Assembly (NCBI GenBank): GCA_021730945.1
Contig: JAKFYH010000055.1
Location: forward strand, 1 to 43,475
Length of the DNA stretch: 43,475 nt
Source: Acidobacteriota bacterium
GTDB lineage: Bacteria; Acidobacteriota; Vicinamibacteria; Vicinamibacterales; UBA2999
Direction: 5' to 3'
A program made the translations under genes and the position numbers. The notes below the pieces were generated by a model that was not told the origin of the DNA, made no database searches, and saw nothing but the letters and a program-made list of their open reading frames with translations. Numbering within the stretch: the first letter of the stretch is position 1; the number at the start of each line of letters is the position of its first letter. This document shows, piece after piece, positions 30,464 to 33,436 of the stretch.

Positions 30464-30513
30464 CCCTGCGACTGTTCCGTCTGTCGAGGGCGTCGGCTCC
30501 CAAGAGGATGACC

Positions 30514-31326
30514 ATGCGTAGAACTCAGTTGCTTCCCTATACCCTGATCGCCCTGGCGGCCACCGCCGTCCTGACCTCGAGCGTCTCGGCGCAAAATCCG
30601 GTCACCGAGCGGCTGGTGCAGTGTTCGCTGGTCTGGAAAGGCCAGGAAGATGCCATCGAGAAGTTCCTGTCCGAGGGCCGCATCGAGAAGATGGAGGCGG
30701 TGCCCGTGGGCGTCACCAAGCCGCAGCGCGCCACGCTCGAAGCCGGCGGACCGGCGATGCGCTTTGCCTGGAAGCCGCTCACCCCGGGCTACAGCAAGGG
30801 CTACATGGAGAGCTACAAGGCTGAGATCGCCGCCTACAAGCTCGACCGCATGCTGGACCTTCACATGGTCCCGCCCATTGTCGAACGCGCCATCAGCGGC
30901 AAGCTGGGCGCGGCTGTGCTGTGGATTGAGAACACCAAGGGCTGGAGCATCCAACAGCCCCCCCAGGGACCCGAGCCCAGGTGGAGCATCGAGCTGACTC
31001 GCATGAAGATGTTCGACCAGTTGATCGCCAACATCGACCGCAACCAGGGCAACCTGCTGTACGACGACGACTGGCACCTGTTCCTGATTGACCATTCCCG
31101 GGCGTTTACCGATCGCAAGGACCTGAAGGGTGTGGCCGCACTCGGCCGGGTGGACCGCCAGTTGTGGGCCAAAATGTCGGCCCTGACCATGGCCGATCTG
31201 GAAGCCGGCCTCGGCACCTGGGTCGGGAACAAGGAGAAGAAGGCGTTATTGCAGAGGCGGGACAAGATGGATCAGGAGATCAAGCGATTGGTCGCCAAGC
31301 GCGGCGACTCCGTGTTCTACGATTAG
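30514..31326 (+). CDS. predicted exported kinase-fold protein
   Basis: A 270-residue protein with a signal peptide (MRRTQLLPYTLIALAATAVL, cleavage near VSA-QN). The remainder resembles the atypical kinase fold of the PI3/4-kinase, HipA and FAM20C group. Candidate ATP-binding Lys87 is in MRFAWKPL, Glu104 is in KAEIAAYKLDRML, the catalytic loop is IDRNQGNLL with Asp175 and Asn180, and the metal-binding Asp193 is in LFLIDHSRAF. Spacing and order fit that superfamily, and all four positions are filled, so activity is plausible. The substrate is unknown (protein, lipid or sugar). A metallophosphatase gene follows after 2 bp and is also exported, suggesting opposing activities in the periplasm. Export plus a kinase fold is unusual, as periplasmic ATP is scarce. 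Confidence 0.7.
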   Translation: MRRTQLLPYTLIALAATAVLTSSVSAQNPVTERLVQCSLVWKGQEDAIEKFLSEGRIEKMEAVPVGVTKPQRATLEAGGPAMRFAWKPLTPGYSKGYMESYKAEIAAYKLDRMLDLHMVPPIVERAISGKLGAAVLWIENTKGWSIQQPPQGPEPRWSIELTRMKMFDQLIANIDRNQGNLLYDDDWHLFLIDHSRAFTDRKDLKGVAALGRVDRQLWAKMSALTMADLEAGLGTWVGNKEKKALLQRRDKMDQEIKRLVAKRGDSVFYD

Positions 31327-31328
31327 GC

Positions 31329-32579
31329 ATGCGCACCCTCGCCGCCCTGTTGGCCCTCGCCCTGCTGTCGGGGCCGGCCCTGCCGCTCACCGCGCAGGGG
31401 CCGCCACGAGTCGTGGCGGTCGGCGACATCCACGGCAGCCTCGAGGGTCTCACGGCCATCCTGAAGGCGGCCGGTCTCACCGGTGCCGACGGCAAGTGGG
31501 CCGGCGGCCGCGCCCAGTTCATCCAGACCGGCGACTACATGGACCGCGGCGATCGGACCCGCGCCGTCCTGGACCTGCTGATGGCCCTCGAGCCGCAAGC
31601 CAAGGCCGCCGGCGGCCGCGCCTTTGCCCTGCTCGGCAATCATGAAGTGATGAACTTGATCGGCGATACGCGGGACGTCACCCACGAAATCTTCGCCACC
31701 TTCGCCGACAGCAAGTCCGAATCGCGCCGGCAGGACGCCTGGTCGAAGTACGCTGCCCTGGCGGCGGCGCAGACACCGAAGGAAGGGCCGCCACCGCCGG
31801 TCTACGCGCAGACCAAGCAGGCGTGGCTCACGACGCATCCGCCCGGCTACGTCGAGTATCGCGAGGCCCTCGGACCTGGCGGCAAGTACGGCCGTTGGCT
31901 CCGCGACAAGCCCATCGTCACGCAGTACGACGGCACCATCTTCATGCACGCCGGTTTCGATCCGGCCACCGCCCCGGCGACCCTCGACGAGGTGAACGAC
32001 CGCGTGCGGGATGAAATCCGGCGGCTGGATCGATTCGTCGACCGTTTGGTCGACCGCAAGCTGGCACTTCCCTTCTTCACCCTGCAGGAAATCCTGCAGG
32101 TCACTGCCAACGAGATCCGCGCGGCCAACGCGGTGATGGCCGAAGCCGAGGCCGCCGGCAGGCAGCCGGACGGCTCGAAGCTCGATGTGCCGCTGCTCAT
32201 CGAAGCGCAGGAGATCATGAAGATCGATTCGTGGACGATTGTCGCCGGCGAGGGTGCGCTGTGGTACCGCGGGCTCTCCACGCTGCCCGACGACCCGACG
32301 GGCGGTCCGTTCGCGGCGCTCCTGGCGCGCTACGGCGCCCAGCGTTTTGTGACCGGCCACACGCCGCAACAAAGCCGCCGCATCACCTCGCGCTTCGGCG
32401 GACGCGCGATCCTGATCGATACCGGGATGCTGGCCTACTACAAGGGTCGGGCGTCGGCGCTCGAGATCGCGGGCGGCGCGCTGACCGCGATTTACGAGAA
32501 TTCGCGGGAGCCGTTACCGGTCTTGAACCAGGCGACGGTCTGGCGCAGCCCCTCTTCCAGCGTGACGATCGGGCGATAG
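31329..32579 (+). CDS. exported calcineurin-like metallophosphatase
   Basis: A 416-residue protein with a signal peptide (MRTLAALLALALLSGPALPL, cleavage near TAQ-GP) and a complete metallophosphoesterase domain: GDIHGS, QTGDYMDRGD, LLGNHEVMNL, FMHAGFDP, VTGHTPQQ and ILIDTGML. The layout fits the Shewanella-like protein phosphatases, which act on phosphoserine, phosphothreonine or phosphotyrosine. It starts 2 bp after the kinase-fold gene, so the pair forms an operon. The last 27 or so residues (from about ENSREPLP) are encoded antisense to the end of the epimerase gene and are probably a dispensable tail. Secreted location and pairing with a kinase fold are the notable points. Confidence 0.9.
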   Translation: MRTLAALLALALLSGPALPLTAQGPPRVVAVGDIHGSLEGLTAILKAAGLTGADGKWAGGRAQFIQTGDYMDRGDRTRAVLDLLMALEPQAKAAGGRAFALLGNHEVMNLIGDTRDVTHEIFATFADSKSESRRQDAWSKYAALAAAQTPKEGPPPPVYAQTKQAWLTTHPPGYVEYREALGPGGKYGRWLRDKPIVTQYDGTIFMHAGFDPATAPATLDEVNDRVRDEIRRLDRFVDRLVDRKLALPFFTLQEILQVTANEIRAANAVMAEAEAAGRQPDGSKLDVPLLIEAQEIMKIDSWTIVAGEGALWYRGLSTLPDDPTGGPFAALLARYGAQRFVTGHTPQQSRRITSRFGGRAILIDTGMLAYYKGRASALEIAGGALTAIYENSREPLPVLNQATVWRSPSSSVTIGR

Positions 32580-33436
32580 CCCAGCAGGCGCTCGGCCTTG
32601 CCGATATCGGCCTGCGAATCGCGCACGTCGCCCAGGCGGCCGGCCTCGTAGATCGGCTCGACCTCGGAGCCGACAATGTTCTTCAACACGGCCAGCAGGG
32701 CGTTGAGCGAGACGCGGCCGCCGGTGGCGACATTGAAGACCTCGCCGGCCACGGCCGGCGCCGCAGCAGCCCGCAGCACACCGTCCACCACGTTGGTCAC
32801 GAAGGTGAAGTCGCGCGTCTGGCTGCCATCGCCGTAGATCACGGGCCGCGTGCCGGCCAGCAGCGCCTTGATAAACAGCGAGATCACGCCGGAGTAGGGC
32901 GAACCCGGATCCTGCCGCGGACCAAACACGTTGAAGTAGCGGGTGGTCACCACCTCGAGCCCGTAGAGGCGGGTGAACATCTGGCCGTACTGCTCGCTCA
33001 CCAGCTTCTGCAGTGCGTAGGGCGTCATCGGGTTGGTGGCCATGTCCTCGCGCTTGGGCAGCGTCGGCAAATCGCCGTAGACCGACGAGGAACCGGCAAA
33101 GACGACGCGCTTGACGCCGGCGGCGCGGGCGGCGACCAGGATGTTGAGCATGCCGTCGACGTTGGCCCGATGCGACTCGACCGGATTCTTCACCGACCGT
33201 GGCACCGACGGGATGGCGGCCTGGTGAATGACGTACTCCATGCCATCGACGACGGCGGCGGCCGCCGTCGCGTCGGCGAGGTCGGCCTCGACGAACTCAA
33301 CGCCTTCACGCAGGTTGCGGCGATAGCCGGTGACCAGGTTGTCGGCCACCCTGACGCGATGGCCGCCAGACACAAGCGCTTCGGAAATATGTGAGCCGAT
33401 AAAGCCGGCTCCGCCAGTCACGAGGTATGAGGCCAT
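32492..33436 (-). CDS. NAD-dependent sugar-nucleotide epimerase (extended SDR)
   Basis: A 314-residue short-chain dehydrogenase/reductase of the extended GalE type. The Rossmann motif TGGAGFIGSH is at the N-terminus, the Ser-Tyr-Lys catalytic set is in GSSSVYGD and YALQK, and the substrate region includes RYFNVFGPRQDP, YGDGSQTRDFTFV and NVATGGRVSLN. It likely interconverts UDP-GlcNAc/UDP-GalNAc or UDP-Glc/UDP-Gal for surface polysaccharide; the exact substrate cannot be read from sequence. AGGA precedes the ATG by 5 nt. The 3' end of the RNase P RNA lies 14 nt upstream on the same strand. The C-terminus overlaps the phosphatase gene on the other strand by 88 bp. Confidence 0.92.
   Translation of the reverse strand: MASYLVTGGAGFIGSHISEALVSGGHRVRVADNLVTGYRRNLREGVEFVEADLADATAAAAVVDGMEYVIHQAAIPSVPRSVKNPVESHRANVDGMLNILVAARAAGVKRVVFAGSSSVYGDLPTLPKREDMATNPMTPYALQKLVSEQYGQMFTRLYGLEVVTTRYFNVFGPRQDPGSPYSGVISLFIKALLAGTRPVIYGDGSQTRDFTFVTNVVDGVLRAAAAPAVAGEVFNVATGGRVSLNALLAVLKNIVGSEVEPIYEAGRLGDVRDSQADIGKAERLLGYRPIVTLEEGLRQTVAWFKTGNGSREFS

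Follow-up and report, generated by a model that had tools for sequence, protein, structure and literature searches.

The locus and its two predicted exported products

Two adjacent reading frames on the forward strand occupy positions 30,514 to 32,579 of the window (the whole 43,475-nt stretch of Acidobacteriota DNA that was analysed). The sequence-only reading had placed them 2 nt apart, and direct reading of the frames shows these coordinates to be exact. The features are the following:

30502..30507, + strand: AAGAGG, Shine-Dalgarno-like, 6 nt 5' of the ATG at 30514 (read in the sequence)
30514..31326, + strand: predicted exported FAM20-like kinase-fold protein, 270 aa (reading frame read directly, predicted fold, structural match)
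30514..30591, + strand: predicted kinase signal peptide, residues 1-26 (by reading; heuristic on the family)
31329..32579, + strand: predicted exported Shewanella-like PPP metallophosphatase, 416 aa (Pfam, PDB and fold matches)
31329..31394, + strand: predicted phosphatase signal peptide, residues 1-22 (by reading; heuristic on the family)

The kinase frame starts at the ATG at 30514, and a second in-frame ATG lies at 30508. A convergent epimerase gene (32492-33436, - strand) overlaps the final 88 bp of the phosphatase frame, whose residues 403-416 have low confidence in the predicted model. The neighbours that recur in the window's family (small genes, an NtrC-type regulator and the epimerase, all named by reading) form a syntenic block. 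A conserved third gene within the window itself was rejected, as these recurring neighbours are a syntenic block only.

Both N-termini resemble Sec signal peptides, namely MRRTQLLPYTLIALAATAVLTSSVSA followed by Q after the cleavage site in the kinase and MRTLAALLALALLSGPALPLTA followed by Q in the phosphatase (both cleavage sites by reading). Of the kinase family, 72 of 81 members pass a simple signal-peptide heuristic, and of the phosphatase family 30 of 35, compared with 227/554 other genes and 71/554 shuffled sequences. The signal peptides that had been claimed for both proteins are supported by sequence reading and by this family-wide heuristic, and the two proteins are very probably extracytoplasmic, as far as their sequences tell.

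The second protein had been described as a complete Shewanella-like metallophosphatase, with which its metal motifs and its sequence and fold matches all agree. It matches Pfam Metallophos (46.7 bits for a cut-off of 21.5) and PDB 1v73, the Shewanella enzyme, both by sequence (E 1.6e-26; next family 4.9e-5) and by predicted fold (Z 32.8; next group 20.6). The PPP metal motifs GDIHG, GDYMDRG, GNHE, MHAG and TGH are present, and LIDTG fits the motif (I/L/V)D(S/T)G named for Shewanella-like phosphatases in the available part of PMC535813. The Shelph/SLP enzymes (PDB 1v73, 2z72, 2zbm) are alike in sequence, fold and metal motifs, whereas the window-type phosphatase is paired with a kinase, is fused to it in relatives and carries long helical stretches C-terminal to GNHE and to HAG (by eye), 259 of its 416 residues aligning with 1v73.

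A FAM20-like fold and its catalytic positions

The first protein had been assigned to the PI3/4K-HipA-FAM20 fold. Structure prediction confidently gives a kinase fold (pLDDT 90.8, pTM 0.84), and the outcome that was to count against the assignment, a prediction without such a fold, did not occur. FAM20 chains fill the first nine structural rows (Z 19.2-21.3, rmsd 2.6-3.5, 225-235 residues aligned), the best of them at Z 21.3 and rmsd 2.6 over 226 residues, followed by PI4K-II (Z 16.4-17.8), CtkA (13.9-15.4) and HipT/HipA (about 10-12). The top row is a hydra Fam20 with a bound sugar, which is tied with FAM20C (Z 21.3 versus 20.7); since Z differences within 1 are ties, the class of substrate cannot be read from the fold.

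PI3/PI4 kinases, CtkA, HipA/HipT and the SCO1664 family (TIGR03843) have the superfamily fold in common with the window protein. PI3/PI4 kinases, CtkA and HipA/HipT nevertheless score lower than FAM20 in structure, and profile scores lie under each curated cut-off: 22.2 bits for PI3_PI4_kinase (PF00454; E 1.6e-4; cut-off 27.1), on a match that covers the catalytic loop, 18.1 for the HipA-like PF20613 (cut-off 27) and 43.1 for TIGR03843 (cut-off 172.4). The same holds for PF06702 (Fam20C), with 12.7 bits for a cut-off of 26.8. An ordinary PI4-kinase was rejected, the best PI4K-II row being 3.5 Z units under the best FAM20 row. A HipA-type toxin was rejected on its Z of about 10-12, its profile score under the cut-off and the presence of a signal peptide.

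The six residues expected to hold metal and ATP can be located as follows:

30772..30774, + strand: K87, beta-3 lysine (almost invariant in alignment A1)
30808..30810, + strand: E99, at the position of Glu306 of FAM20C, the essential acidic residue (alignment)
30823..30825, + strand: E104, at the C-helix glutamate position, Glu218 of ceFam20 (alignment)
31036..31053, + strand: DRNQGN catalytic loop, D175-N180 (alignment A1; pairs with FAM20 'NMDRHHYE')
31090..31092, + strand: D193 in IDHSRAF, DFG-type aspartate (D in 157/157 kinase domains)

By role, we take D175 to be the catalytic Asp and D193 the DFG-type Asp. Alignment A1 comprises 21 sequences, the window copy among them; D175, N180 and D193 are invariant in it and K87, E99 and E104 nearly so, while over the 157 kinase domains the K87 position is K in 100 and mostly R or Q in the rest. 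The spacing of 5 between E99 and E104 matches that of residues 213 and 218 of ceFam20. The Lys, Glu, DRNQGN and IDH positions that had been picked out from the sequence are present, and the alignments show the FAM20 catalytic positions to be kept. The role of the acidic residue (Glu306/Glu213/Asp152) has been described in FAM20 kinases, and the pseudokinase FAM20A has a Gln at the Glu306 position, loss of the acidic residue being part of the cause (PMC5865150, available part). The window copy has kept its catalytic residues, the acidic one lost in FAM20A among them, and is likely to be an active kinase.

Fused kinase domains are often degenerate: D175 is retained in 10/18 of them versus 34/39 phosphatase-adjacent copies. 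Alignment A2 (54 rows) uses 53 of the 62 listed kinase frames and omits L119 8756-9607, 6365-7198 and 7842-8705, L121 7992-9188, L125, L150 8844-9758, L152, L154 and L157; L162 is excluded from the gene maps and domain tables.

The FAM20A/B/C kinases (Golgi casein kinase; PF06702) are alike in fold over nearly the whole domain, in the placement of acidic and catalytic residues, in secretory location (predicted for the window protein from its signal peptide) and in the presence, in some genomes, of degenerate copies next to intact ones. Unlike them, the window protein is bacterial, about 270 aa long, under the PF06702 cut-off and of a type coupled or fused to a phosphatase. Its precursor has a single Cys (C38) and thus no FAM20-type disulfides within the chain, whereas ceFam20 has the disulfide Cys273-Cys277 (PMC5865150, available part). 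A 545-aa exported neighbour of kinase paralogues gives a weak profile comparison with FAM20 (probability 4.2), in which the 44 aligned columns span the catalytic loop. CotH of the Bacillus spore coat is related to FAM20C and is not known to be exported by Sec or to work with a phosphatase or an ATP carrier. It is likewise a bacterial kinase, but its targets are spore coat proteins, on which it acts as a Ser/Thr kinase (PMC7821199, available part).

Linkage of the pair and association with a transporter family

Among 297 genomes of the window's phylum, 58 encode the kinase, 50 a strong phosphatase match (E<1e-35) and 48 both. This threshold drops 16 of the 66 genomes with a phosphatase match, those with weaker E, including the kinase genomes G136, G241 and G266; ten of the 58 kinase genomes lack a strong match, and seven of these ten any match. 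In 59 relatives, the window's own genome being excluded, both genes are found in 22, the kinase only in 5, the phosphatase only in 2 and neither in 30 (kinase E<1e-20, phosphatase E<1e-35, which leaves the decayed G007, with a kinase E of 5e-12, out of both positive sets). The association of kinase and phosphatase is more than chance, with Fisher values that ignore common descent and whole-genome searches that scored few candidates per genome and may have missed some.

The phosphatase is present in 24/61 kinase-search loci, directly downstream on the same strand in 18 of the 61, and locus maps show the pair to be adjacent across different gene neighbourhoods. No phosphatase lies within 700 nt of 100/157 kinase domains, for some of them only for want of sequence. 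At the syntenic place, both genes are absent from G003, for which joint absence alone is claimed as the phosphatase 'remnant' lies largely inside the epimerase-gene overlap, and both have decayed together in G007; G006 is uninformative on joint loss, its phosphatase match being the contig start only. Phosphatase-kinase fusions, in the reverse of the operon order, were found in 19 frames that correspond to 18 distinct proteins (L153 and L216 being one protein, counted once) and 8 family codes. On the kinase tree, the fusion label changes 7 times, at least 4 of the changes being forced by starred branches.

Conservation of the pair, which the sequence-only reading had proposed to survey, holds for the adjacency in varied contexts and for the fusions in 18 proteins. 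It does not hold for seven genomes, in which the genes are separated, either on different contigs (G013, G029, G032, G036, G058) or 4.7-4.8 kb apart (G001, G008). Given the adjacency in different contexts and the fusions, the random separation in relatives that was to argue against a pair was not observed. Adjacency, joint presence and repeated fusion indicate that the two proteins work together, and they almost certainly form a functional pair. Outside the phylum, divergent kinase relatives occur in 22/140 genomes of the phylum of G335 (locus L160 is titled Myxococcaceae). Linkage was rejected there, as all 14 loci read in that phylum lack the phosphatase and the transporter described below, and a Gemmatimonadetes-titled kinase locus (L159) has no phosphatase.

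A third correlate, invisible from the window sequence alone, is the TLC/NTT family of ATP/ADP-transporter homologues, found in 56/58 kinase genomes versus 20/239 others. Genome size alone was rejected as the source of this co-occurrence, since flagellin, of like frequency (80/297), shows none (16/58 versus 64/239). The transporter lies in one stretch with the kinase or phosphatase in 18/40 loci from 10 family codes, while none was found in 114 scanned kinase or phosphatase loci (duplicates and cut stretches included); the window's genome has two transporter genes, at a different locus from the pair (G000:C20). In the window's family (36 genomes), the kinase/transporter table reads 12/1/1/22 at E<1e-5 and weakens to 12/1/6/17 at the looser E<1e-3. 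For the remaining families of the order, the table of phosphatase versus transporter at this looser threshold is not significant (7/4/5/7, p 0.41). Four kinase genomes had no transporter detected at E<1e-3, of which G037 is 98% and G048 86% complete, and G057 and G006 are less so.

All nine linked transporters tested belong to PF03219 (TLC 39.4-79.6 bits, cut-off 21). HEAT repeats were found in seven, three of which also have a cNMP-binding domain, and the other two (L204, L217) are single-domain; a separate cNMP-binding protein lies next to the linked transporter of L216. These domains are those of the NTT/NTT-HEAT(-cNBD) homologues, from which the present proteins differ in that their co-occurrence and position link them to a kinase and a phosphatase with predicted export. 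The NTTs characterised so far are known to take up nucleotides, and the NTT-HEAT subfamily is described as uncharacterised (Major et al. 2017, PMC5381601); in the available part of that paper, no known function is given for NTT-HEAT(-cNBD) fusions and the word 'kinase' is absent.

A possible extracytoplasmic phosphorylation module

The periplasm is usually taken to be without ATP, and reversible regulation by kinases and phosphatases to be confined inside the inner membrane. In the periplasmic phosphorylations that are known, the donors are lipids, as with LpxT and EptA. In the Golgi, FAM20C is supplied by nucleotide carriers. From the data above, the following model can be drawn. The kinase and the phosphatase would be exported via Sec, and their site of action would be the periplasm or the cell surface. 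The kinase, an atypical one of FAM20/PI4K-II type by fold and motifs, would hold metal-ATP by K87, E99, E104, D175, N180 and D193 and phosphorylate an extracytoplasmic protein or glycan, and the phosphatase, a Shewanella-like PPP enzyme, would dephosphorylate the target of the kinase; it is in this sense that we infer a 'writer' and an 'eraser'. The associated TLC/NTT protein would supply ATP, or swap ATP and ADP, across the inner membrane. Such a carrier would explain the working of a kinase in a compartment poor in ATP, and we lean slightly towards the transporter being its ATP source.

Overall, the balance tips modestly in favour of a module of this kind, in which exported kinase and phosphatase act on a common target and have some functional tie to the transporter. 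A bolder version, which we hold only tentatively, is that many Acidobacteriota possess a counterpart of Golgi phosphorylation, with a dedicated NTT-type carrier, a FAM20-like exported kinase and an exported PPP phosphatase that reverses its action, in some lineages on the kinase's own polypeptide, the targets being envelope or secreted ones. If so, the NTT-HEAT proteins of free-living Acidobacteriota would gain a function.

The literature searched contained no description of such a kinase-phosphatase-transporter module. A conserved kinase and phosphatase with predicted export, which several lineages have as a fusion and which are associated with a family of ATP/ADP carriers, make the assumption of a periplasm without ATP directly testable, and pair and carrier hint at bacterial phosphorylation beyond the cytoplasm. 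The FAM20 secretory kinases gain a bacterial relative, and the NTT-HEAT transporters, whose function is given as unknown in the available part of PMC5381601, gain concrete partner genes.

Other readings of the same data can be weighed against the module. The kinase might instead modify a glycan or lipid, be it a sugar within an exported polysaccharide, lipid A or another lipid, as FAM20B does with xylose, the phosphatase trimming the product. The sugar-bound hydra Fam20 in the top structural row, the PI4K-II lipid kinases that come next and the kinase copies that adjoin a PAP2-type phosphatase (L062, L101 and L085, Pfam having been run for L062 and L085) point this way, but the tie within 1 Z unit leaves the fold silent on substrate class and a specificity for Tyr is described for the Shewanella phosphatase (PMC535813, available part), and we consider this reading rather unlikely. 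It is improbable that the pair is regulated in cis, where the target of the phosphatase would be the autophosphorylated kinase, or that of the kinase the phosphatase, and where some fused kinase domains would serve as pseudokinase regulators as FAM20A does for FAM20C. Degenerate fused or adjacent kinases (e.g. 'KDECDD') do lie beside intact 'KEEDND' ones (L202-L206, L217-L219), yet the catalytic residues of the window copy are intact and most phosphatase-adjacent copies keep D175.

Scavenging, in which the exported enzymes would process extracellular nucleotides for import by the NTT homologue, is very improbable: nucleotides could be substrates of an extracellular phosphatase, but FAM20-type kinases are not, to our knowledge, a nucleoside kinase family, and a kinase fused to a phosphatase would be odd for uptake. 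The import of nucleotides by the NTTs of intracellular parasites (PMC5381601, available part) speaks in its favour. Finally, the pair does sit in a conserved syntenic block within the window's family, as it would if descent alone held unrelated exported proteins together; this is scarcely credible, since the adjacency in other contexts and the fusions in 8 family codes, which accompany the co-occurrence, are incompatible with mere synteny.

Predicted export and folds of the two proteins

Both ORFs lie exactly where the sequence-only reading had placed them, with 2 nt between them, and the signal peptides that it had proposed are also read, as Sec-type, at the N-terminus of both proteins, as a prediction rather than a localisation. 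The features are as follows.

Upstream of 30514, + strand: Shine-Dalgarno-like AAGAGG before the kinase ORF
30514-31326, + strand: kinase-fold protein, 270 aa
31329-32579, + strand: phosphatase, 416 aa
32492-33436, - strand: epimerase gene, overlapping the phosphatase ORF tail-to-tail by 88 bp (32492-32579)

A heuristic for signal peptides (hydrophobic stretch plus small-residue site) is passed by 72 of the 81 members of the kinase family and 30 of the 35 members of the phosphatase family; among other genes of these stretches 227 of 554 pass, and among shuffled sequences 71 of 554.

The Pfam matches of the kinase are all weak and under the curated cut-offs (PI3_PI4_kinase, E 1.6e-4; HipA_2, 1.7e-3; Fam20C, 0.1), and TIGR03843 gives 43 bits of the 172 required. 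A PDB search with a 21-sequence profile places FAM20 chains on top (E 8e-8 to 1e-5), and AlphaFold2 (54 sequences) predicts the kinase fold that had been proposed (pLDDT 90.8, pTM 0.84). FAM20 chains also rank first when this model is compared by Foldseek and VIA-align: the best match is sugar-bound hydra Fam20 (226 residues aligned at Z 21.3 and rmsd 2.6), followed by FAM20C from zebrafish (Z 20.7) and human (20.6), and lower down by PI4K-II (17.8), CtkA (15.4), HipT/HipA (about 10-12) and PI3K (about 10).

In the sequence alignments, E99 lies opposite the Glu of 'FERHNAEIAAF' in FAM20C and a Gln in FAM20A, E104 lies opposite the next Glu, and D175 and D193 fall at the catalytic and metal aspartates of FAM20. 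According to PMC5865150, the acidic residue essential in FAM20 proteins is Glu306 in FAM20C, Glu213 in ceFam20 and Asp152 in hydra, whereas the pseudokinase FAM20A has Gln there; five positions after Glu213, Glu218 of ceFam20 aligns with the canonical ion-pair Glu. E99 and E104 have the same spacing of five, and we infer from the alignments that E99 is the FAM20 essential acidic position. The protein is called FAM20-like rather than a FAM20 member, because it falls below the Fam20C Pfam cut-off and has a single Cys.

The phosphatase carries the PPP motifs and is, as read from the sequence, a Shewanella-like metallophosphatase (Pfam Metallophos, 46.7 bits for a cut-off of 21.5; Shewanella phosphatase in the PDB sequence search, E 1.6e-26). 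Its AlphaFold model (pLDDT 89.7) matches 1v73 with Z 32.8, the next group being at 20.6. The Shewanella enzyme is reported as Tyr-specific (PMC535813).

Adjacency, co-occurrence and fusion

The kinase and the phosphatase belong together. Among 61 loci matching the kinase alignment in a titled genome collection, 55 with Acidobacteriota-group titles, the phosphatase lies within the fetched stretch in 24 and directly downstream on the same strand in 18, with gaps as small as -4 nt; it was not found in the stretch of the other 37, some of which end with the contig. The flanking genes are mostly unlike among eight loci (L072, L078, L079, L080, L081, L082, L083, L084), so the pair is not one inherited block. 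Among 297 genomes of the window's phylum, taken to be Acidobacteriota from such titles, 58 carry the kinase and 66 the phosphatase. Of the 50 genomes in which the phosphatase match is strong, 48 have the kinase as well; among the 58 with the kinase, 10 are without such a match, and 7 of these without any. Two genomes of the window's genus deviate at the site that holds both genes in other family members: G003 lacks the two there, and in G007 a kinase N-terminus runs into phosphatase fragments. The proposed pair is adjacent in varied contexts, co-occurring and, in some relatives, fused, and is not randomly separated.

The fusions amount to 19 open frames (18 distinct proteins), with the phosphatase N-terminal to the kinase in every one; as this order is the reverse of that of the operon, they are not read-through copies of it. 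Most begin signal-peptide-like by eye, and 17 are spread over eight family codes. On the kinase tree, the fused label requires 7 changes, at least 4 of them forced by starred branches. The eight site residues checked in the phosphatase are intact in 16 of the 18 distinct fusions; the kinase catalytic Asp is retained in 10 and is Cys in 5, and the fused kinase of the latter group looks like a pseudokinase. In most of these genomes, such degenerate fusions adjoin intact 'KEEDND' kinases, which may be a parallel to FAM20A with FAM20C.

Some genomes carry between two and four copies of the kinase in tandem (L202, L206, L217, L218, L176 and L181), in several cases a degenerate copy next to intact ones. 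In L065 (G001) and L066 (G008), both of the window's genus, 4.7-4.8 kb of other genes, read as a large carboxypeptidase-regulatory-like protein and signalling genes, separate kinase from phosphatase.

A TLC/NTT transporter as third partner

One further family recurs near fused and adjacent copies. Nine representatives all match PF03219 (TLC ATP/ADP transporter) above cut-off, with HEAT repeats in seven and cNMP-binding domains in three; these are the NTT and NTT-HEAT(-cNBD) architectures of PMC5381601, which describes the function of the fusions as unknown.

At E 1e-5, the transporter is found in 76 of the 297 genomes (56 of 58 with the kinase, 20 of 239 without), and flagellin, a control of similar frequency (80/297), in 16 of the 58 kinase genomes and 64 of the other 239. 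In the 36 genomes of the window's family, both genes occur in 12, the kinase only in 1, the transporter only in 1 and neither in 22 at E<1e-5 (12, 1, 6 and 17 at E<1e-3). The corresponding values for 23 genomes from other families of the order are 10, 4, 0 and 9 (11, 3, 1 and 8 at E<1e-3); phosphatase and transporter show no significant association in those 23 (7, 4, 5, 7). All these statistics count genomes as independent and ignore kinship.

Eighteen of 40 stretches (37 genomes) picked for kinase or phosphatase hold the transporter, 35-3282 nt off and in 10 family codes, as do four loci of an earlier set (L080, which is L141; L083; L119; L146); none was found in 114 scanned kinase/phosphatase loci, duplicates and cut stretches included. 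The window's own genome has two transporter genes, a divergent pair at another locus (G000:C20). No transporter was detected in G037, G048 and the incomplete G057, although kinase and phosphatase are both there. A 139-149 aa protein, read as an RsbW-type anti-sigma ATPase, lies beside tandem kinases in L203, L204, L217, L218, L220 and L221, which belong to two family codes, f52 and f69.

Possible mechanism and distant relatives

The two ORFs with the families, predicted folds and conserved residues of their products, together with the adjacency, fusion and co-occurrence observed, lead us to the following model. The kinase would be the writer and the phosphatase the eraser of an extracytoplasmic phosphorylation, and the NTT protein would be the likely source of ATP for the exported kinase; export, activity, a shared substrate, and the ATP supply with its direction are all putative elements. 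The main rival reading is that the target is a glycan or a lipid. Kinase copies adjoin PAP2-type phosphatases in L062, L101 and L085, which keeps it plausible, and the fold does not separate protein from glycan substrates, since hydra Fam20 and FAM20C are tied. For the writer and eraser pair, the literature searched, which lay mostly outside subscription journals, contained no recognisable description of a bacterial exported FAM20-like kinase with a phosphatase or NTT protein.

The window's genome also has a kinase paralogue, with Q at K87 and N at E104, in a run (L062:7594-12197, G000:C7; also L101) with an Omp85-like protein, a 545-aa exported protein and a PAP2 phosphatase. Members of a family of ~530-560 aa, exported by reading, are found at:

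L062:9391-11025, - strand
L101:5179-6813
L141:3686-5359
L145:10028-13193

The one member tested has no Pfam match; the family carries 'HVDAKGIN...LLDFGSAL', reminiscent of the catalytic loop and the DFG motif of kinases, and is perhaps a second exported kinase family.

In the phylum to which G335 belongs, and whose locus is titled Myxococcaceae, 22 of 140 genomes carry divergent relatives of the kinase, with no phosphatase or transporter in the 14 loci read. Several of the divergent kinases at L298-L310 and L296 have 'RAEIAAFRLNRLLGLxRVPPAI' and 'NWDRW...YRDNNGGF', near FAM20 motifs by eye. Two loci, L104 (JAIEMQ010000016.1, titled Cyanobacteria) and L105 (VFZG01000001.1, titled Acidimicrobiia), appear to be G008:C7 and G004:C1 of the window's genus, so that their titles look wrong.
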